Shown: positions 53,596 through 64,000 of the stretch, one piece after another
Numbering within the stretch: position 1 is the stretch's first letter
Layout: each line of letters begins with the position of its first letter
Assembly (NCBI GenBank): GCA_947624305.1
Contig: CANQKC010000014.1
Coordinates: forward strand, 1-64,000
Reading direction: 5' to 3'
Length of the DNA: 64,000 nt
Origin: an uncultured Monoglobus sp.
GTDB lineage: Bacteria > Bacillota > Clostridia > Monoglobales > Monoglobaceae
Notes under the pieces: generated by a model
What the model saw: the letters and a program-made list of their open reading frames with translations, nothing else
The model's database searches: none
Told to the model about the DNA's origin: nothing
Program-made: the position numbers and the translations under genes

Positions 53596-53666
53596 AAAAT
53601 CATTCCTTTTTTCAGTTTAAGCTTATTATTCCCAAAAATGAAACAATTAACAAATTTTCTTTAATT

Positions 53667-53697
53667 TCATAATATATTACAGGCAGTGTCATTATCC
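53667..53697 (+). promoter_or_regulatory. Possible SigmaE promoter of the cotJ operon
   Basis: TCATAATAT (53667-53675), a 14-base spacer and CATTATCC (53690-53697) resemble the SigmaE pattern (ATA-type -35, 14 bases, CATACAAT-type -10). cotJ of Bacillus subtilis is SigmaE-controlled, which fits. Confidence 0.4.
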
Positions 53698-53736: not shown

Positions 53737-53949
53737 ATGCCATACGCAAACGAGACAAAACTGCCCGACAATATGCTGGTGGGATATGCCTATGTTCCGA
53801 TACAGCAGGCAAACATGCGGAACCTTTTCGACCCGGAATACGGTCTCAAGGAAGGCACGATATTCCCGATCCTCAATAAGCCGCTCGGCGTCTACGGCCA
53901 CCAGATCAACGGCGACACGATATTTCAAAACGGAGGTATGCAGGAATGA
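53737..53949 (+). CDS. cotJA: Spore coat-associated protein CotJA
   Basis: A 70-residue protein with the CotJA pattern LVGYAYVPIQQANMRNLFDP and EYGLKEGTIFPILNKPLGVY. CotJ proteins are made in the mother cell and incorporated into the coat. AAAGGAATTG before the ATG at 53737 sets the start. It overlaps cotJB by four bases. Confidence 0.95.
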   Translation: MPYANETKLPDNMLVGYAYVPIQQANMRNLFDPEYGLKEGTIFPILNKPLGVYGHQINGDTIFQNGGMQE

Positions 53950-54194
53950 ACAGGAATGAGTTGTTAAATCAGATCTCCGCGTTCGCCTTTGCCGAGAAAG
54001 AGTGGAACCTATATCTTGACACCCACCCAAACGACAAGGAAGCGCTCAAGAAACATAAGGCTATGGCCGAAAAGGCCAAAGAGCTGATCAAGGAATATGA
54101 GGAAAAGTTCGGCCCGCTCACTCCGATGAGCGCGGTCTGCCAGGAAAGCTTCGACTGGATAAGCGGCCCGTGGCCCTGGGACAACTGCAATTAA
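53946..54194 (+). CDS. cotJB: Spore coat protein CotJB
   Basis: An 82-residue protein matching CotJB: LLNQISAFAFAEKEWNLYLD, THPNDKEALKKH and the C-terminal ESFDWISGPWPWD. It is normally required with CotJA for coat assembly of CotJC. Its start overlaps the cotJA stop; cotJC follows by 15 bases with its own AAGGAGGG site. Confidence 0.95.
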   Translation: MNRNELLNQISAFAFAEKEWNLYLDTHPNDKEALKKHKAMAEKAKELIKEYEEKFGPLTPMSAVCQESFDWISGPWPWDNCN

Positions 54195-54209: not shown

Positions 54210-54413
54210 ATGTGGAATTATCAAAAAAAGCTGCAATACCCCGTAAACATCAAAAACCCCGACCCCAAACTCGCGTCCTATGTAGTGAGTCAATATGGCG
54301 GTCCTAACGGCGAGATCAGCGCATCTTTGAGATATTTGTCGCAAAGATACTCAATGCCGACCGACGCCGCAAAAGCCTTGCTCACCGACATAGGCTCTTT
54401 TGATTTAAAATGA
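54210..54413 (+). pseudogene. cotJC: cotJC (spore-coat manganese catalase), 5' part only, interrupted
   Basis: The first 64 residues match CotJC perfectly in style: MWNYQKKLQYPVNIKNPDPK, YVVSQYGGPNGEISASLRYL, then PTDAAKALLTDIG. At this point the family continues TEELAHLEM, the first metal-binding segment, but here the frame reads SFDLK and stops. A complete protein is about 190 residues. The missing part is not in the remaining 9.6 kb. The gene is not decayed: binding site and frame are intact up to the break. The junction coincides with the end of a serine recombinase gene on the other strand, so this looks like one half of a gene split by a site-specific element. Confidence 0.9.
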
Positions 54414-56046
54414 GGCTATCTACTCCTGCTTCGGTTATTGCGCTGTTTTCGCTGTTTTTCATCATGTTAGTGTCTTTTTTCTTATCCAACATATCACCTA
54501 CTATCACCTGCCACTTATGCGGCAGCAAATTCACATAAACATCGTAATGATCTCTGTCATATATAACTATTTTCTCAATTAAATTTCTGTAAAATGTTTC
54601 ATTTCTTTCTGTTCCATAAAGCATTTTATTTATATGAACTTCAATATCTTTTATCGCACTGTCGATATCATAGCTGTCTTGCGATTTTCCTGATAACTTT
54701 GACAATAGTTTTTCAAGCTTTGTTATTTCATTTTCATATGTCTCCTTTTTTAGTCTGTACTCCTCTTTTGACAAAATGTCATTTAAGTACAGGTCGAGCA
54801 ATTTTTCTTTTTTTGAGTTCAGATTAGATATATTTTTTCTTATTTCTGTTTCACTAACTGTTTTCTCACGATCTCTTATAAAAATCGGCCTGAGCGCTTC
54901 GGATATGCCGTTAATAATTTTGGGCTTATTCACTTCAAGGTGTTCAATAACTTTTTGTATTATAATCATAAAATCCTCATCTCGAATGCCGGCATGAAGA
55001 TCACAACCTATTTTGTTCCCAGCCTTATCCGTCTTCACTCCGCCATACATCATAGCATTGTAGCATCTCCATGATTTGTATTTGCTTCCGTCTTTGCGTT
55101 TTTTGCTTCGTGATACAAATCTGTTTCCGCAGCAGCCGCATATAAGTTTTCCCGAAAGCGTATAACGATTGCTGTGTTTGCTCTTTATTTCAGCGGTTGG
55201 TTCTTTCTTTTTAAGCTCGGCTTGTGCCATGTCCCACAATTCTCTTGAGATTATGGGTTCATGGTGATCTCTGATTATGACAAGATCTTCAATACCGCGA
55301 TTATATTTCTTTTCGTGTGTCAGATAATCGGGTGTATATGTCTTTTTCTGAATTAAATCTCCACAATATTTTTCGTTTCTTAGCGCTCGAAGTATTACCG
55401 TGTTTGTCCACATTACATTGCCTGTAACAGTCTTATAGCCTTCCTCGCGAAGTTCTCTTGCAATTGTTGAAGTTCCCTTTCGTTCATTAACGAATTTATG
55501 AAAAATCAAGCGGACGATTTTAGCGCCGTCCTCATTTATGTATAGTTTTCCGTCATGAACGTCATATCCAAGCATATTACGGCCAAAGACAACACCTTTT
55601 TCCATTTGCCGCTTCTGTCCCCATTTTACTCGTTCCGATGTTTTTCGGCTCTCTTCCTGAGCAAGTGAAGCCATAATAGTCAGACGCAGTTCACCGTCCG
55701 GCGCAAGCGTATGTATATTGTCAAGCATAAAATAAACACCAATATTAAGCGCCTTCAATTCGCGCGTGTATTTAAGCGTGTCAACTGTGTTTCTTGCAAA
55801 ACGGCTGACTTCTTTGGTAAGAATTAAATCAATTTTACCAAGATGCGCATCAGCAATCATTTTGTTAAACGCCTTTCTCTTTTTTGTGCTTGTGCCGGTC
55901 AAACCTTCATCGGCGTAAATCTCCGTCAATTCCCAATCGGGATTTCTTTTAATACTTTCTTCAAAATATCTTTTTTGACTGGCAAATGAATTTGCTTGAT
56001 CATCGTTGTCTGTCGATACACGACAGTATGCCGCTACATTCAGCAT
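54382..56046 (-). CDS. Large serine recombinase
   Basis: A 554-residue site-specific recombinase: N-terminal resolvase domain with catalytic Ser11 in AAYCRVSTD and the conserved TKEVSRFARNTVDTL, a recombinase domain (about 155-260), a zinc ribbon (CGCCGNRF and distal Cys), and a coiled coil (about 385-460). The start at 56046 has AAGGGG nine bases upstream. The gene points at, and ends inside, the broken cotJC, so it probably catalyses integration and excision there. An excision regulator may be encoded by the small gene upstream. Confidence 0.95.
   Translation of the reverse strand: MLNVAAYCRVSTDNDDQANSFASQKRYFEESIKRNPDWELTEIYADEGLTGTSTKKRKAFNKMIADAHLGKIDLILTKEVSRFARNTVDTLKYTRELKALNIGVYFMLDNIHTLAPDGELRLTIMASLAQEESRKTSERVKWGQKRQMEKGVVFGRNMLGYDVHDGKLYINEDGAKIVRLIFHKFVNERKGTSTIARELREEGYKTVTGNVMWTNTVILRALRNEKYCGDLIQKKTYTPDYLTHEKKYNRGIEDLVIIRDHHEPIISRELWDMAQAELKKKEPTAEIKSKHSNRYTLSGKLICGCCGNRFVSRSKKRKDGSKYKSWRCYNAMMYGGVKTDKAGNKIGCDLHAGIRDEDFMIIIQKVIEHLEVNKPKIINGISEALRPIFIRDREKTVSETEIRKNISNLNSKKEKLLDLYLNDILSKEEYRLKKETYENEITKLEKLLSKLSGKSQDSYDIDSAIKDIEVHINKMLYGTERNETFYRNLIEKIVIYDRDHYDVYVNLLPHKWQVIVGDMLDKKKDTNMMKNSENSAITEAGVDSLILNQKSLCR
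54385..54413. other. Predicted attachment-site junction (left end of the intervening element)
   Basis: Similarity to cotJC ends at the codons for Asp-Ile-Gly (GACATAGGC, 54388-54396). From there the sequence also encodes the last residues of the recombinase on the minus strand. A short core shared with the other cotJC half is expected here, two bases for a large serine recombinase, within some homology. Confidence 0.65.
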
Positions 56047-56103
56047 TGCTATCATCCCCTTTTCAATTATATTTTACTATATAATAATAAAAGGTGCAAA
56101 AAA

Positions 56104-56283
56104 TTAACGCTGTTTATACTTTTTTTCAATGTATTCAACAGCGTCGTTATATTGTTGTAAATTAATTTTCTTTTCTTCATGAAGCGAAATAAGTATAATT
56201 TTTTGGATATTAATCGTAATTTCATCATTATCTCTCAGATTTTCTTTTGGACATATCACTTTTATGTTTTCATTTTTTATCAT
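56104..56283 (-). CDS. Small protein upstream of the recombinase
   Basis: A 59-residue protein starting MIKNENIKVICPKENLRDND and ending in a helix, LQQYNDAVEYIEKKYKQR. GGAGG six bases before the ATG supports it. It lies 57 bases before the recombinase start and is probably cotranscribed. Small charged proteins often sit here and might serve as recombination directionality factors; nothing in the sequence proves that. Confidence 0.7.
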   Translation of the reverse strand: MIKNENIKVICPKENLRDNDEITINIQKIILISLHEEKKINLQQYNDAVEYIEKKYKQR

Positions 56284-56457
56284 GCAAAACCTCCAACTAC
56301 TGTATATTTTATGTGAAAAGTTGCCGGAATATTAACGATAAGTATAAAATGATTAGAAAAAATCATTTTATATTTAGCGTTATATCAATATCTTCGGTAT
56401 ATAAGTGTTTTGATATATCTGTGATGCGAGAGATATATAAAATAATTTAATATTTAT

Positions 56458-56936
56458 AACAAATTTAAACAAGCCGACAAACAGCGGCTTGCAAGACCGC
56501 TCATTGGAGTTTCACCTTCCCGACATCCGTCCGGACTATCCTCATTGCGTGCGACGGCGTCGCAACTCATTTTACGGGCTCGCAATTGCTTTAAAAGCAA
56601 TTGCTCCTTTTCCCACAAAGCACATGGCTTTGCGGGAGCCCTGAATTGCTATCCGCTCGTGCTGTGACTGAATAGAAGTATCTCCCGATACGGAGTCGTC
56701 GCCGTTTAAGCTGCAACTTAATTCGGGATAATATGTTTTTCGCTCGCCGAAATCGGGTCATGGCGCATTTATCCGCAGGCTCGTCCGCAACGGAACGTAT
56801 TTGTCCGCTCTTTATTATGCAGCGGCATTATCCTCCGCGCTTTCTTTGTATCGGTTTTCTCAACCGAGACTCATTATACACGGTATACTCCGCAGCTTTT
56901 TCGTAGTATCGAAAAATTTTTTTAAAAGTTTTTTGA
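56458..56936. ncRNA. Candidate structured RNA or inserted element
   Basis: No convincing gene. The region is GC-richer than its surroundings and full of hairpins: GCAATTGCTT/AAGCAATTGC (56582-56605), CCCACAAAGC/GCTTTGCGGG (56614-56637), TGCGACGGCGTCGCA (56551-56565), GCCGACAAACAGCGGC (56472-56488), and ATCGGTTTTCTCAACCGA (56850-56868). A run of T follows at 56917-56923. A broken gene resumes at its right edge. Strand and class are unknown. Confidence 0.35.
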
Positions 56937-57380
56937 CATTCAAATGCGGTCCGTATTACGGAAAATATTATCGGCGGCATACTTGACGAGGTTTATAACG
57001 GTCTGGGTTACGGCGCTGCAAGCGGTCGAGCAAACACACTAATACGCCAAGCGGTTGAAAACGATGAAACCAACGGCTATGGATATGCCGAGCTTCCGGC
57101 AATATCTCAAAACTCTATACGGACAATAATTGACATTATGCAGCGTCCGAATGTTTATCGGACGGCAGAAACTATGTTGAGACCTCTGCTCTCCGAGCAA
57201 ATTGCAGCTATTAAAAATGGTAAAGATTATTCCGAAGCGGTCATTGAGGCCTATATCGTTATATATCCCGAATTTTTTTCAGTTTCACAAATGTTCGTTG
57301 ATCAATGTTATTGGGAAACCACAACGGTTGATCCGGCAATCCTAGCAACAGCAAGAAAAATATTGCGTGACGCAAAATAA
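56937..57380 (+). pseudogene. 3' remnant of an unrecognised gene
   Basis: The frame is open from 56937 without a usable start codon and reads NAVRITENIIGGILDEVYNG and GLGYGAASGRANTLIRQAVE, through to ARKILRDAK at 57380. The ATG at 57138 would give the last 80 residues, but continuous coding character upstream shows a 5'-truncated gene. The truncation falls at the edge of the hairpin-rich region. The function is unknown; no motifs are recognised. Confidence 0.55.
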
Positions 57381-57395
57381 TCATAATATCATAAA

Positions 57396-57425
57396 AGACG
57401 CAGTCCTATTTCAATCGACTGCGTC
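57396..57425 (+). terminator. Terminator after the gene remnant
   Basis: AGACGCAGTC pairs with GACTGCGTCT around a 10-base loop and is followed by ATATT. Confidence 0.75.
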
Positions 57426-57828
57426 TATATTGATTTAAACACATAATGCTGCATATAAACTCGCACTCGTTACTGCTTTGCTACAATTACTTGTAAAATT
57501 TCAGCAAATAAAAGGTAAAATTGACATTTTTACGCTATTTTTGACTTAATTTTTATTATTTTTTTATTTATCGACAAATACACATTTATGTTATTTATTT
57601 ATTTCAATTATTATATAAAAAAATGTCAATATTATAACTGAGATGAACCCAAAATGTTTGAATACAAACAAAGCACGAATTGCTTGAACCATTTCCATAA
57701 TAACAATCCAGATATTTGTCCCCTTTGCATCATTTTTATATAATTTCATAATACTATAGCGAAAAACGTCTCTAATTCGAGCCTCTTTTTGATTTTCATT
57801 TTCCGAAACAAATGCTGCTCCCTATATT
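57426..57828. other. AT-rich gap
   Basis: No gene, repeat or clear promoter is seen; composition is very AT-rich with T tracts around 57540-57620. Confidence 0.5.
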
Positions 57829-59082
57829 TTATAGGCCAAAGCTGTTGCCCGAGAGCAGGAAGTCAAAAATATTCATGATCGTTATGCCGTTTTCGTCTTG
57901 ATGCGTTTTTACCGCGTCTCTTACGATAATTATTTTTCTGAAGCAATCCGGAACGCTGAGCAGCGACGCTTTTTCCTGTTTGATCTTTTCCGCGTCCGGA
58001 AGGCTGTACGCGGATTGGATATAACAGCGTTTGCTTCCTTTGTTGGCTACAAAGTCGATCTCAAGCTGCGTTCTGGCCTTTTTTCCGTCTTTGCCCGACG
58101 CTCTTTTCGGCACCACGCCGACATCGACCGCGTATCCGCGTATTCTTAACTCATTATAGATGATATTTTCCATCAAGTGCGTTTCCTCGATCTGTCTGAA
58201 TCCCAGCCTCGCGTTGCGCAGTCCCACATCTTCGAAATAGTATTTCAGCGGCGTTCCGATATACTTTCTGCCTTTCACATCATATCTTTGCGCCTCGCTG
58301 ATGATAAACGCGTTTTTCAGATACTCGATATACTGCCTGATCGTATTTAAGCTGATGTCCGACCTTATAACGCTTTTAAACGTCGCCTCGATTTTTGAGG
58401 GATTCGAAAGCGAGCCTATCGAAGACGCCAAAACATTGATGAGATCATTCAGCTCCTGCACCTTTTCTATACGGTTCCGTTCAACGATATCTATAATATA
58501 GGTCTCGTCAAACAAGGTCGTCAGATATTGTATTTTTTGCTCGTCAGTTTTTAGAACAGCTGTAAGCGGCAATCCGCCGTAGGTGACATATTCTGACCAT
58601 CCGCGATAAACATCGCCGTCATACACGCTCATAAATTCCTTAAACGAGAGCGGATAAATATGCACCTCATCGCCGCGTCCCCTGAACTCGGTTATAATAT
58701 CCTTTGACAAAAATTTCGAATTGCTGCCCGTGACATACACGTCGGCGTTTTGTATATGAAGAAGCGAATTGAGCACCTCTTCAAACTCTTCGAGCATTTG
58801 AACCTCGTCCAGTAAAATATAATACCGCTCATCGTCTTTTATAAGCGAGGATATATATTCAAGAATGACGTCGGGATCTCTGTATTTTCGGTTTTGTCTC
58901 AAGTCAAGCTGGATCTCGATTATGTGCGACTGCTCCGTACCGATATCCAAAAGATAGTTTTTGAAAATATTGAATATCAAAAACGATTTTCCGCTTCTGC
59001 GGATGCCCGTCACGATCTTGATCAAACCGTTGTGCATTCGTAATTTTAAAGCGTTTAAATATATTTCTCTTGAAATAATCAT
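57829..59082 (-). CDS. ATP-binding protein (AAA_14/DUF4143 family)
   Basis: A 417-residue ATPase with Walker A TGIRRSGKSFL (residues 25-35), Walker B YILLDEVQML, and sensor-like VYVTGSNSKFL. The C-terminal DUF4143 domain has a nuclease-like core (QLEIDFVANKG). Proteins of this kind are abundant in gut bacteria, often accessory, and of unsettled function. It is encoded alone with an AGGAGGG site. Its place in the element suggests cargo. Confidence 0.88.
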   Translation of the reverse strand: MIISREIYLNALKLRMHNGLIKIVTGIRRSGKSFLIFNIFKNYLLDIGTEQSHIIEIQLDLRQNRKYRDPDVILEYISSLIKDDERYYILLDEVQMLEEFEEVLNSLLHIQNADVYVTGSNSKFLSKDIITEFRGRGDEVHIYPLSFKEFMSVYDGDVYRGWSEYVTYGGLPLTAVLKTDEQKIQYLTTLFDETYIIDIVERNRIEKVQELNDLINVLASSIGSLSNPSKIEATFKSVIRSDISLNTIRQYIEYLKNAFIISEAQRYDVKGRKYIGTPLKYYFEDVGLRNARLGFRQIEETHLMENIIYNELRIRGYAVDVGVVPKRASGKDGKKARTQLEIDFVANKGSKRCYIQSAYSLPDAEKIKQEKASLLSVPDCFRKIIIVRDAVKTHQDENGITIMNIFDFLLSGNSFGL

Positions 59083-59671
59083 GATCTGCCCTCCTATTGA
59101 AAATCAGCGGCGCTTGTACCGATCTTTTTCAATATTATACACCAAAACATGAAAAAAGTAAACATCTTTATGAAATTTATTAAATAAAATGAATTCGTCA
59201 ATCACTCCGGCTAAATCGACATCGAAAAGCCTGCCTCAGATGCTCTTTTAAACTATGACACAAGTGTGCTGCAATATTCCGCTTCATTCTTATGATTTAG
59301 ATTTTGTTTTATATTATCGGACAAGTACTCCAAATTTGCTAAAATCAAATAACTATGATATAATAATTAAGCCAACCATTAGTTATGGTATCTTTTCGAT
59401 ATTCTCTAAAGTTGATATATTATTCAAAACAGTAATTATTTCATCCGGTTTTATTTCATAATATTATAAAATTTCGGAATACTGTCCTGTTGTAAAACTT
59501 AAAAATACACCCGTGCGGCTCGTCACAACGGCGGCTATACAATTAACATTCCAAAATAAAATACAACTAAACACAAAAAATAACCAAAGTGTATACACAA
59601 TATTTAATACATCATGCAATATATTAAAAAATTAAGTAATTCAATTATATAAGTTTATTGAGGTGTTTCTT
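59083..59671. other. AT-rich gap
   Basis: No supported gene. A 68-codon frame at 59255 lacks a binding site and coding character. GAGGTG just before 59672 serves the next gene. Confidence 0.5.
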
Positions 59672-60314
59672 ATGCTTGATTACAAATATACTAATGCTTG
59701 GCTGCGGGAACGGCAAATTACTCTGAAAGCGGGATTTGCTGATCTGCTTAAGAACTACGCTAAAACATATAAAAAAACACAATATCCCATTATCTGAAAT
59801 CTATGCCCTATTGGGATGTTCAAAACAAAACATTTCTTATTGGGAACTGCATCGCGAGAGTACGCAGTTCAAAAAATCCGTGTATAATGTAATACATAAT
59901 GCCGCTGTTCTATTTAATTTAAGTGATATTGATGCCGAGGCGTTGGCAAACAGCGCAGGACTTTCGCTCATTTACGAGGGAGGCGCGCTGCTGAAAAATT
60001 TAAAGTATTCCGGCAAACCTAAAGATCTGTGCGACAGCGCTGTAATCAGCGACAGAATGCTAAGATATTATAAATACAAAACGCCGACAAAACAGGCGCT
60101 GCTTGCTATAACAATCGCGCTGAATATGGATAGACCGGAAATAGAAGACATACTGCGCAAATACGGATATTGTCTGTCTGAAAGCATAGCGGCAGACGCA
60201 GTAATCAGATGGTTCTTGAACAGTCATAGTAAAACACGCGGGAAAAAACTGTTAGAATTAATTAATTATACACTCGACAAAATGGGGCTTCCTCTTTTAA
60301 TGACAAGAAATTAA
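59672..60314 (+). pseudogene. Helix-turn-helix protein with a frameshift at an A7 tract
   Basis: Translation should start at ATG 59672, six bases after GAGGTG: MLDYKYTNAWLRERQITLKA. The frame reaches a stop near 59795. Removing one A from the A7 run at 59771-59777 joins it smoothly to the next frame (KKHNIPLSEIYALLGCSKQN), which continues to 60314 and gives about 213 residues. The middle carries a Cro/CI-like helix-turn-helix. The C-terminal part (KQALLAITIALNMDRPEIED, then ILRKYGYCLSESIAADAVI) is a helical module seen in other accessory proteins. It may be a pseudogene, a slippage-controlled gene or a base-call error. Confidence 0.7.
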
Positions 60315-60501
60315 TAAAAGTCAAAATTTATTTCCGTTTTTTTCAAAAAAAATAATATATTATGTAATAGACAAAAACGTTATTGTCAATTCACAAATGC
60401 AGAAAGCATTATATGAGATATGCTAAAATTCTATATTATATGTCTCATAGATCTTCCTGCTAAGTGATAACATTATTCTATTCTGCAAGGAGGAAAAAAA
60501 T

Positions 60502-61311
60502 ATGGCAGAAGTAAAAAAATTCATCGAAAATTTCAGTGGTCAAGCGGAGGAACGAGATCAGGCGAAAAGAGAGGTCTCGCAGCTTGTCACGCTTGCAACT
60601 GCAAAACTGGACGTGATCGAAGCAAGGTTCAGGGATATGTTCCGCAACAGGGAACTGGAGGCTCAACTGGAAATTGTCGGAGATCGAATGGGAGCTTTTT
60701 CACGCGAGTACAGAGTTAATTACAGCGACGGCGATATTTCAAACGCCGTAAAAGAACTTGTCGAATCAATTATGTTGATCGGGCACAGTGACACGCGGAC
60801 TATCGTTTGCAAAGTTATTGAAAACGCACTGCATTCAATATTTGCTTCTGTGACAGCCACAGAAGAAAGCAAGCGCCTTTTTATTGTGATCTTGGAAGGA
60901 GTCTCGCTTGTCAGGTATGACATCGAGATTTGGAAGAGCGCAGAGCAAGATTCATCAATCTTCAAGCATTGTCAGAGTGTAGTTGCCATAACATACGCCC
61001 GTTCTGTTGTCGATCACACGAAAGTTTCCGAGGATGAGCTTAATGATGCAATTTTCAGATTTCTCGGGTCTTCGGCTACCATTGACGATATCATAACCTA
61101 CAAAAAGAAACTCCTTGATCTGCTGAAACTCAAAGCGGACAATGACGGAATCAACTTAGAATTGAGCAACGACGCCAACGACATGGATCTGATTCCTATG
61201 TTGACGCAAATTCCTGTTGACGAAAAAAGGGCTAACGAATACGCAGCACAAGCCAAAGAAACAAAGACATCAAAATATGTGGCGACTTTGCTGGAAGAGC
61301 AAAAAGCATAA
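60502..61311 (+). CDS. Hypothetical protein, largely helical
   Basis: A 269-residue protein I do not recognise. It is predicted mostly alpha-helical and acidic, with EVKKFIENFSGQAEERDQAK at the start and a Lys/Asp-rich end. No signal peptide or membrane segment is seen. AAGGAGG before the ATG is a strong site. Monocistronic, followed by a hairpin, two genes before the endolysin. Confidence 0.65.
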   Translation: MAEVKKFIENFSGQAEERDQAKREVSQLVTLATAKLDVIEARFRDMFRNRELEAQLEIVGDRMGAFSREYRVNYSDGDISNAVKELVESIMLIGHSDTRTIVCKVIENALHSIFASVTATEESKRLFIVILEGVSLVRYDIEIWKSAEQDSSIFKHCQSVVAITYARSVVDHTKVSEDELNDAIFRFLGSSATIDDIITYKKKLLDLLKLKADNDGINLELSNDANDMDLIPMLTQIPVDEKRANEYAAQAKETKTSKYVATLLEEQKA

Positions 61312-61635
61312 AAAATACATAAACAAAGATATGTCCTGCATACGGACTTATAATCGAACAGATTAAACGCCGCTTTGTTGCAGACAATGCGAAATGATTC
61401 TGTTAAAGCGGTGAAACCTATTTATTGGTTTCACCGTCTGCATTTAATATAACATTTAATATAACATTGAAATAACGATCCGCCTCATTTTATCATTAAT
61501 ATACAGAATTTAGTGTTTATCCCGTTGTTTTGATAATATAATAAGCAATATGAATAGCGTTGGGATAAATTTCTCATCCTTGGGCGCTTTAAAGTCCGAG
61601 ATAATGAACAAATTGAATGAAGGAGCTGATTAGTT
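61312..61635. other. Gap with terminator and a possible short frame
   Basis: A hairpin lies at 61409-61436. Direct repeats of ATTTAATATAAC are at 61441-61465. A 27-codon frame (61550-61633, MNSVGINFSSLGALKSEIMN) ends just before the endolysin start and may be the end of a lost phage gene; it has no clear binding site. Confidence 0.4.
61409..61436 (+). terminator. Hairpin after the helical protein gene
   Basis: CGGTGAAACC and GGTTTCACCG are exact complements around an 8-base loop; no T run follows. Confidence 0.6.
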
Positions 61636-63003
61636 TTGACAGTTGATCAAGCTATAGACAAAGTAATAGCGATAGCGCAGAACGAGATAGGCTATCTTGA
61701 AAAACGGAACGGCAATAATCTTGACGATAAGACAGCCAACGCGGGCGACGCGAATTACACAAAGTATTGGCGGGATATAGCTCCCGAATATCAGGGCTTG
61801 CCGTGGTGCGCAGCGTTTGTGACATGGTGTTTTACTATGGCATTTGGCAAGGAGAACACCAAGAAAATGTTAAAGCACTATCCGTACATATCCTGCCCCG
61901 AAATATCTAAGAAATTTACTCTCTGCGCAAATCCGCTGCGAGGGGATATTGTTGACTTTTGGCGCAGCGGAGCGTTTGCTCATACGGGACTTGTGACGTT
62001 CACCGCAAATGCGTATGGAGACCCGTTTTCGACGATTGAGGGCAACACATCGGGCAGAAATGAGATAATTGTCAACGGCGGCGGGGTTTACGCTAAGACA
62101 TATTATAACTCTAACCTGTCGGGCACGAAATTTATCCGCCCCAATTATTCTATAGTGGCGGACGAGCCCGGCTGTACGGATTTTCCGAAGTATAATTTGT
62201 CCGATTCGGCTATCAGAGATATAGCAACCTGTATCACAGGAGAGCAGGGCGGAGAGGACGTCACAGCCTGCCGTCAGGAGGCATCGCAGATAGCGAACCT
62301 GAACGAGGTCACATATGGACGAGCCAATACCGAGGCTAATATATTAAAGACGCTGCACGACGGCTGGTATGCCAAATCAAACTGGGACAATGGATGTACG
62401 CAGAAGGCTATCGACGCAGTTAAATTTGTGCTCGTTGATGGCAAACGCGTACTGCCCAGATATGTAACCGAGCATGATATGTTCCCTCTGGATGCAGCAA
62501 TTTCGGGACACTGGAGCAACGGCAGGTCTGAGAACAGATCACAGTACATACCGCACCAAACAACAATAAAACAAAACCCGTCACGTTTCGGCGGATGCGG
62601 AGCTTCTTATACGTTCTATACTTTCTTCGGTTCTAACGGAAATAAGGACGTGGCGGGCTATTACGCGAAAGATTATAAAAAATACAAAAACGATATTCCT
62701 TGGGAAGAATCGAGAGAGGGTGGTCTTATGAGTAAGGAATATGATAAGCTTGTGAAGAAAAACGAGCTGCAGGACGCTGCGATAAACGCTGCGGGTAAGG
62801 ATATACAGGATATTGTTAAAGCATATCCGACCATGATATACGACTACATAGACGAAAACATGCCCGCATGGTATCGACCGACCATTGAAAAACTGGTCAG
62901 AAAGGGCTATCTCAAAGGCGACGAGCAGGGACGCCTCCGCCTGACCGAGACGGAAATGCGTCTCTATACCGTAAATGACCGCGCGGGTATTTATGGGGAG
63001 TAA
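61636..63003 (+). CDS. Phage-type endolysin with CHAP domain
   Basis: A 455-residue cell-wall hydrolase. The N-terminal CHAP-like amidase/peptidase domain (1-175) has catalytic Cys58 in LPWCAAFVTWCF and His116 in AFAHTGLVT. A second domain (about 185-355) resembles a cell wall hydrolase, and the C-terminus (MPAWYRPTIEKLVRKGYLKG then NDRAGIYGE) is the tail seen in clostridial phage lysins. The start is TTG 61636, ten bases after AAGGAG. No holin gene is next to it. It marks the region as phage-derived at least in part. Confidence 0.85.
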   Translation: MTVDQAIDKVIAIAQNEIGYLEKRNGNNLDDKTANAGDANYTKYWRDIAPEYQGLPWCAAFVTWCFTMAFGKENTKKMLKHYPYISCPEISKKFTLCANPLRGDIVDFWRSGAFAHTGLVTFTANAYGDPFSTIEGNTSGRNEIIVNGGGVYAKTYYNSNLSGTKFIRPNYSIVADEPGCTDFPKYNLSDSAIRDIATCITGEQGGEDVTACRQEASQIANLNEVTYGRANTEANILKTLHDGWYAKSNWDNGCTQKAIDAVKFVLVDGKRVLPRYVTEHDMFPLDAAISGHWSNGRSENRSQYIPHQTTIKQNPSRFGGCGASYTFYTFFGSNGNKDVAGYYAKDYKKYKNDIPWEESREGGLMSKEYDKLVKKNELQDAAINAAGKDIQDIVKAYPTMIYDYIDENMPAWYRPTIEKLVRKGYLKGDEQGRLRLTETEMRLYTVNDRAGIYGE

Positions 63004-63127
63004 GCCGCACATGAGGCTGTTTTAGCGTTGACTCCGTGAGCCGTTTTGTCCTCGGTTCTCGGTTGAGCTTCGGAAGGTTGGGCAATAACCACAAGACAAA
63101 TATATAATATATCGAAATAAAACGCTC

Positions 63128-63167
63128 AAATAGGCTCCGTCGGAATTTTCCGCGGAGCCTATTTTTT
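63128..63167 (+). terminator. Terminator after the endolysin gene
   Basis: AAATAGGCTCCG and CGGAGCCTATTT are exact complements, with a further internal CGG/CCG pairing, and a T run follows. Confidence 0.88.
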
Positions 63168-63529
63168 ACGCTGAAAAATATAATAATAAAATATCATAGC
63201 CCTATTTTATTATATATTTGTAGTAGAATCGCTGTCTGTACCCTATTTTATTCAATAAATTTTATACCGTTTTTGACACTAAACTGCGATAAATTATGGT
63301 CAATTACAGTGATTTCGCCACATTTTCAGTTTTATCAAAAACCCTCGCTATCAACGTTTTTACGGGCTTTTCGGGCTTTACCCGCAAATCTGTGTTAAAA
63401 TTTTACAAAAATATTTCAAAATCAGATTAACATGTCAAATTTTTAAATCAGCCTCTTTAAAATAATATGTATGCTAATTAAACTCTCAGCAATATTGAGA
63501 GTCACAAGCAAGGTATACTTTAGCTTATA
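63168..63529. other. AT-rich gap
   Basis: No gene or clear regulatory site is seen. An ACTCTCAGCAATATTGAGAGT dyad at about 63481-63501 could terminate the gene that ends at 63530. Confidence 0.5.
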
Positions 63530-64000
63530 TTAACTTATCAGCAAAATATCCTCACGTTTTGCGGCCAGTTCTTCCAATTCAGGTGTGAAGCCGCTTATAC
63601 TGAATAAAACATACCAAACCTTCCTCGTATTTCTGTGCCAGTCAACATCTTTTGTTTTCTCTTCCAAATCGCGCAGAACATTTAAACCTACAGGTTCGTT
63701 CCAATATTTACATTCTCCAAGTATAATATTCTCGCCATCCGGATCTATTGCGGCTATGTCAATTTCAGTGTTTCCCGACCAATATCGTCCGACTCTCGAG
63801 AACAGGAAGGGCCACGCGCCGGAGGCGTTTAGCTCCCACATTCTCTCGCGACATATATCCTCATACACGAATGCGGTTTGACGACTGATGAGCCCATCGC
63901 GTATTTTCCCCGCCGCAATTTCAGCATGACCGCTTTCTATGAAACTCATATTCTGATAGACAAACGCAAACCAAAATCGAATATAATTGTCCTTTATTTT
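63530..64000 (-). CDS. ATP-binding protein with C-terminal DUF234 domain, partial
   Basis: The frame is open to the window edge and reads KDNYIRFWFAFVYQNMSFIE before continuing SGHAEIAAGKI, so the ATG at 63949 is internal. This is the C-terminal part of an archaeal-type ATPase with DUF234, a restriction-nuclease-like fold: IDIAAIDPDGENIILGECKYW holds the D...E-x-K residues. About 157 residues are visible; the ATPase part lies to the right of the window. Confidence 0.85.
   Translation of the reverse strand, partial: KIKDNYIRFWFAFVYQNMSFIESGHAEIAAGKIRDGLISRQTAFVYEDICRERMWELNASGAWPFLFSRVGRYWSGNTEIDIAAIDPDGENIILGECKYWNEPVGLNVLRDLEEKTKDVDWHRNTRKVWYVLFSISGFTPELEELAAKREDILLIS

Follow-up and report, generated by a model that had tools for sequence, protein, structure and literature searches.

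The window analysed here, a 64,000-nucleotide stretch of DNA from an uncultured Monoglobus sp. (GenBank assembly GCA_947624305.1, contig CANQKC010000014.1, hereafter C14), raises the question of why the third gene of a cotJ operon breaks off against a recombinase gene, and whether that gene is lost or can be rebuilt. The two genes preceding it, cotJA (53737-53949, + strand) and cotJB (53946-54194, + strand), had been described as intact, and the profile matches agree: PF11007 scored 44.1 bits (cut-off 25) and PF12652 scored 99.1 bits (cut-off 29). The preliminary description also placed a break in cotJC after the residues DIG and counted 64 in-family residues before it. The break was found where expected, with in-family sequence stopping at LTDIG, whereas the length had to be corrected. 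The 5' half (54210-54395, + strand; PF05067 positions 1-64, 70.7 bits) comprises codons 1-62 and ends in LLTDIG, and the SFDLK that follows is element sequence. A weight-matrix model placed a SigK-like promoter, AACA-N15-CATAATATA, at 53649-53676 (+ strand) for the operon. An intervening element of the sporulation type should interrupt a gene of the mother cell; this is met by the cotJABC operon with its SigK-like promoter, in a host that has an intact sigK (329.9 bits) and spoIIID.

On the opposite strand, a gene for a large serine recombinase (LSR; 54382-56055, - strand) ends within the broken codons, as had been noted at the outset, so that cotJC DNA supplies its final codons. The encoded protein of 557 amino acids has Resolvase, Recombinase, and Zn_ribbon_recom domains (PF00239, PF07508, and PF13408, all above cut-off) and thus fulfils our definition of an LSR, namely a resolvase N-terminus, a Recombinase domain, and a zinc ribbon within about 450-700 amino acids. 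Upstream of the recombinase gene is an ORF of 59 amino acids (56104-56283, - strand), a candidate recombination directionality factor, for which no Pfam or NCBIfam family was matched.

If the gene is only divided, the remainder should exist elsewhere in the proper orientation and frame, as the preliminary description had predicted. A profile search of the window genome gave PF05067 matches at three places: the window (positions 1-64), contig C16 (full-length), and contig C5 (positions 58-206). The last of these is the missing 3' half (C5:103744-104139), which has the same orientation as the 5' half and is intact to its stop codon. It is bordered by element sequence that reaches the end of that contig (C5:104140-109021; RepA_N and ParB genes, and an N-6 methylase gene that is truncated), and SDR, Hsp33, and DacF-like genes lie downstream of it. 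When the two halves were joined in silico at a shared GG in codon 62, LLTDIG was followed by TEELAH and the frame was restored. An intact second cotJC beside a decayed copy in the window had been named as an observation that would refute the idea. The full-length Mn-catalase gene on C16 (C16:18131-18742) is a separate paralogue that occurs in relatives too, and the split copy is not decayed.

The left part of the element (54396-64000) runs on to C14:65033. C14 stops 10.6 kb past the cotJC break and C5 adds 4.9 kb of element, so that at least 15.5 kb was recovered, and both parts are oriented as precise excision requires. Inverted-repeat arms about a central dinucleotide are the expected anatomy of LSR attP sites. 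The attL site (54375-54425) has the crossover dinucleotide GG at 54393-54394, and its element arm, CTCTTTTGATTTAAAATGAGG, forms an inverted repeat with the arm that lies to the left of attR in C5. In the attP rebuilt from the C5 and C14 flanks, 14 of 28 arm positions matched (7.0 in shuffles; p=0.003), and the best inverted-repeat centre was at offset 0, exactly on the shared GG. The element thus shows what is expected of one moved by an LSR: attL and attR share the GG core and the attP arms are inverted around it. The arms likewise peaked at offset 0 in seven of the nine elements tested, with up to 21/28 matches. Furthermore, in a close relative (G012) the codon-62 site of cotJC is uninterrupted and the gene is followed by SDR and Hsp33 genes, the proteins being 99-100% identical to those of the window genome. 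The downstream genes in G012 and the attP symmetry are two independent arguments that C14 and C5 belong together. Their linkage through the element nevertheless remains an inference, as the contigs are separate, the middle of the element is missing, and no read data were available.

Two ATPase genes, AAA_14/DUF4143 and ATPase_2/DUF234, lie in the left part of the element, together with a CHAP-domain match that is weak. No relaxase was seen among the ORFs that were scanned in the 15.5 kb recovered, which lacks the element's middle, and none of the Pfam-scanned ORFs of the incomplete element was a capsid, portal, terminase, or tail gene (PHROGs was not run). Judging from these genes, the element looks like a mobile element of the plasmid or ICE/IME type, with the reservation that a relaxase and the middle part are lacking. 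Near the end of C5, the N-6 methylase ORF breaks off within its first motif (L005 8962-9021), which suggests either a further insertion or a repeat at which the assembly broke.

GTDB genomes were then scanned with an alignment of three recombinases, and the 80 nearest relatives of the LSR were collected. A cotJC half was present in the fetched flank of 72 of them, mostly directly at the 3' end of the recombinase gene, and absent from the fetched DNA in eight. For 65 junctions an alignment on the DIG motif was possible, and in all of these the element begins right after the same codon. The hosts include records of Ructibacterium gallinarum, Roseburia, Dorea, Eubacterium, Anaerocolumna, and Caldicoprobacter, and the cultured R. 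gallinarum DSM 107454 has the same split (L090/L050 and L049). Many genomes of the window's own family have cotJC pieces instead of whole genes. The junctions inspected there fell at three sites: QYGGPN-GE (site A), LTDIG-TEELAH (site B, that of the window), and LAA-EQK (site C). A second LSR family at site B inserts a few bases further on, at TEE-LAH. In manganese catalases, the codons at these sites flank metal-binding residues, and the DNA there is highly conserved for this reason. Elements at site A were seen in both orientations relative to cotJC at the same target (L037, L040, and L042 versus L044, L062, L174, L167, and L170).

The arrangement of the pieces was followed in 26 near-complete Clostridia genomes; these were chosen for having a match and give no estimate of prevalence. 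In the genomes named below, apart from one exception, the cotJC pieces are collinear on the same strand. Each gene is interrupted once or twice, the elements measure 2.7-157 kb, and the sites used number at least four. Single elements of 157 kb (G072), 8.1 kb (G172), 3.4 kb (G200), 3.3 kb (G222), 3.2 kb (G226), and 2.9 kb (G207) were found. The gene is doubly split in six of these genomes; paired elements measure 2.7 and 40.8 kb in G005 (the second spanning the record start), 5.7 and 22.7 kb in G064, 4.7 and 10.6 kb in G138, 4.7 and 88 kb in G175, 3.2 and 21 kb in G255, and 4.7 and 76 kb in G277. The fourth site, around GNP at about codon 110, is seen in G205, where the pieces lie on the same strand 107 kb apart (C1:3223490 and 3330772). 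All three cotJC pieces of G044, from another family of the order, are on one contig, and joining restored the frame wherever it was tested, including in one-contig genomes. The exception is the complete genome G103, in which the pieces are 227 kb apart on opposite strands (C1:225392-225487, - strand, and 452989-453465, + strand); either a later inversion or an assembly problem could account for this. In a sample of the class, 154/244 genomes had a match, and many further matches begin at profile positions 26-30 or 56-62. In the large element of G277 (C1:3255363-3332043), attL resembles the type of the window LSR and attR that of the second LSR family; from these ends, two elements probably lie in tandem at codon 62.

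Whether the divided genes are still used was judged from the detached 3' parts. All 34 that were inspected have an open frame throughout the 114-123 codons aligned. In G011 and G013, each of which carries a site-A element, the 3' parts differed by 21 synonymous and 0 non-synonymous changes; those of the window genome (G000) and G012 differed by 10 and 0, respectively. The dN/dS of detached halves was 0-0.10, and intact homologues were in the same range. This strong purifying selection argues that split cotJC is still used, and of the ways in which it could be used, rejoining is much the simplest. An independent role of the 3' fragment is not formally excluded, although such a fragment would be without the first metal-ligand helix. 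Furthermore, G138, G175, and G277 have one site-A element in common from end to end (about 4,650 bp, 85-88% identity), with a dN/dS of 0.02-0.05 for the detached part. Since the element is collinear throughout, the gene was, as far as such a comparison can tell, most likely split in the common ancestor of the three and inherited vertically. Unlike these older site-A elements, the window copy looks recent and mobile, a reading that rests on the recombinase occupying this site in G009, which is 98.9% identical to the window LSR over 451 residues, and on the empty site in G012; the LSR of Ructibacterium gallinarum at this site is 62-65% identical to that of the window. A different tail after HFQRFGEA was observed in the cotJC 3' parts of L045 (G004), L087, and L153, perhaps reflecting one more insertion site near the C-terminus.

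Promoters were modelled with weight matrices that only approximate the B. subtilis consensus. Just upstream of the small ORF in the window is a SigE-like promoter for this ORF and the recombinase (TAATATT-N14-CATAAAAT; 56306-56334, - strand), scoring 13.7 against 8.6 +/- 1.6 in shuffles. Across 49 non-redundant upstream regions of recombinase loci, the mean z of the SigE model was 1.48 +/- 0.22, compared with 0.13 for SigK, 0.06 for SigG, 0.74 for SigA, and 0.60 for the reversed SigE model. Most of the 80 related loci have a similar small ORF upstream of the recombinase; in the 75 nt preceding this ORF, the SigE mean z was 2.01 +/- 0.29 over 33 loci, of which 55% were at p<0.05. Upstream of the recombinases in L085-L164, GGACAA or GTACAA within the SigE-like spacer, resembling a SpoIIID box, was observed in 19/33 regions; no significance test was made. 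In 17 regions upstream of cotJA, the SigK mean z was 2.75 +/- 0.30 (76% at p<0.05; reversed model, 0.42). For site-A recombinases no consistent SigE-like promoter was found, and three related ones have a SigK-like site. With the small ORF and recombinase behind a SigE-like promoter and cotJA behind a SigK-like one, excision would come first and transcription later. SigE control of the excision operon is suggested by these models and not proven, as there are no expression data.

We therefore consider it very likely that the window contains the left end of a cotJC-intervening element whose excision in the mother cell restores the gene, as the preliminary description had proposed. The proposal gains support from the 3' half, the attP arms, purifying selection, the small ORF, and the SigE-like promoter; excision, its timing in sporulation, the function of the small ORF, and the contig linkage are inferred. 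The class-wide occurrence, the use of several sites by unrelated elements, and the frequent double splitting go beyond that description. Both halves, their orientation and frame, the att anatomy, the specificity of the recombinase, and the purifying selection are observed. According to the model, a mobile element, no shorter than 15.5 kb and carrying replication and partition genes of plasmid type, would have integrated at the GG of cotJC codon 62. In the mother cell, SigE would turn on the small candidate directionality factor and the recombinase, which would release the element in circular form and reconnect the halves at the shared GG, giving LLTDIG-TEELAH. SigK would next transcribe the repaired cotJABC operon. 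The element would stay in the forespore, so that its loss would not be inherited. A circular excised form was sought among 20 IMG/VR relatives, none of which had terminal repeats, and more than half of which still carried cotJC pieces; a 4.4-kb faecal 'phage' record, MT839280, contains a cotJC 5' half and no terminal repeat.

Other explanations must be weighed against this model. The window genome is in 62 contigs, and chimeric contigs could in principle bring a recombinase beside cotJC. However, the junction recurs in G009 and in dozens of independent genomes, including isolates and one-contig genomes, and the three pieces in G044 share a contig, which leaves an assembly artefact with almost no credence. 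Nor do we find it credible that the insertion killed cotJC and the C16 paralogue took over. That paralogue is indeed intact, but the 34/34 open 3' halves, the exclusively synonymous differences between G000 and G012, and dN/dS values like those of intact genes are not those of a dead gene. The product being a catalase, excision might instead respond to oxidative or other stress in growing cells, as active lysogeny restoring the enzyme, and the timing of the event is not given by sequence alone. Such regulation appears quite improbable, as cotJC occupies the third position in a spore-coat operon whose promoter is SigK-like, that of the recombinase is SigE-like, and the progeny of growing cells would lose the element.

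The remaining alternative, unlikely though less so than these, is that of an ordinary integrative element which uses the conserved Mn-catalase sequence as its attachment site and leaves for its own transfer, cotJC repair being incidental. RepA_N and ParB on board and the spread of sizes from 2.7 to 157 kb are compatible with it; moreover, according to an LSR survey, these enzymes often target conserved coding sequences (PMC10083194). What it does not explain is purifying selection on halves that are unreadable unless rejoined, including those around vertically inherited two-gene elements. The SigE-like promoter before the recombinase operon and minimal elements holding little besides the recombinase also speak against it. 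Excision in the mother cell remains our preferred reading. As regards the class, we regard it as likely that cotJC is a hub on whose sites, at least four in number, unrelated LSR lineages have independently specialised, that some of the elements are now vertically inherited two-gene 'DNA introns', and that many Clostridia have to excise two elements from this one gene in the mother cell before the enzyme can be made.

Known rearrangements of this kind in sporulation are scattered cases affecting sigK, spsM, gerE, spoVFB, spoVR, and yabG. In C. difficile, skinCd is likewise an LSR element splitting a mother-cell gene, sigK (recombinase CD1231, directionality factor CD1234), and its 72-aa factor, under SigE and SpoIIID, restricts excision to the mother cell (PMC5025042). 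By analogy with it, the small ORF is a natural candidate for a directionality factor, its role being inferred. Unlike in skinCd (PMC5025042), the interrupted gene encodes a coat enzyme rather than a regulator, and a single SigE-like promoter seems to serve both the small ORF and the recombinase. SPbeta of B. subtilis (SprA/SprB) is also a serine recombinase element in a late spore-envelope gene, spsM, from which it is precisely excised in the mother cell; SPbeta and its remnants are, however, one prophage lineage, whereas the cotJC elements are numerous, have unrelated contents, and occur across the class (PMC4191935). Similarly, gin in gerE of B. cereus ATCC10987 (GirC/GirX) is a non-prophage element with a serine recombinase and a small factor in a sporulation gene, but it is 28.6 kb with three recombinases, in contrast to cotJC elements of down to 2.7 kb with one recombinase and several sites per gene (PMC5595907). 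The yin element of Clostridium botulinum also interrupts a clostridial sporulation gene, yabG, a gene other than cotJC, and was reported from a single isolate (PMC10747680). The cotJC elements meet those defining features of skin, SPbeta, vfbin, and gin that can be tested in a sequence; that they act in the same manner, by excision, is inferred.

No report of a split cotJC was found in the literature searched; subscription papers were largely outside its coverage, and novelty is not proven. The nearest mention is a C. difficile prophage adjoining a CotJC homologue (PMC11222575), and cotJC is not named in the main text of the LSR survey (PMC10083194). Subject to these limits, what is new here is the target gene, the presence of several target sites and several recombinase families within a single gene, the frequency of double splits, and the class-wide spread.

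With this interpretation, 'partial' catalase genes in many genomes would become functional split genes. The recombinases, whose natural target is strictly conserved, would be a source of integrase and att-site pairs. As for cargo, the small site-A elements L165 (G138), L175 (G277), L178 (G175), L170, and L167 have single cargo genes; inspection by eye suggested an 861-aa secreted protein similar to a GH44 glycosidase, a superoxide-dismutase-like protein in G226, and an amidase-like protein in G207. The elements would span a natural range, from mobile ones to minimal ones that resemble introns, and comparing them would make it possible to test why spore formers retain such DNA.
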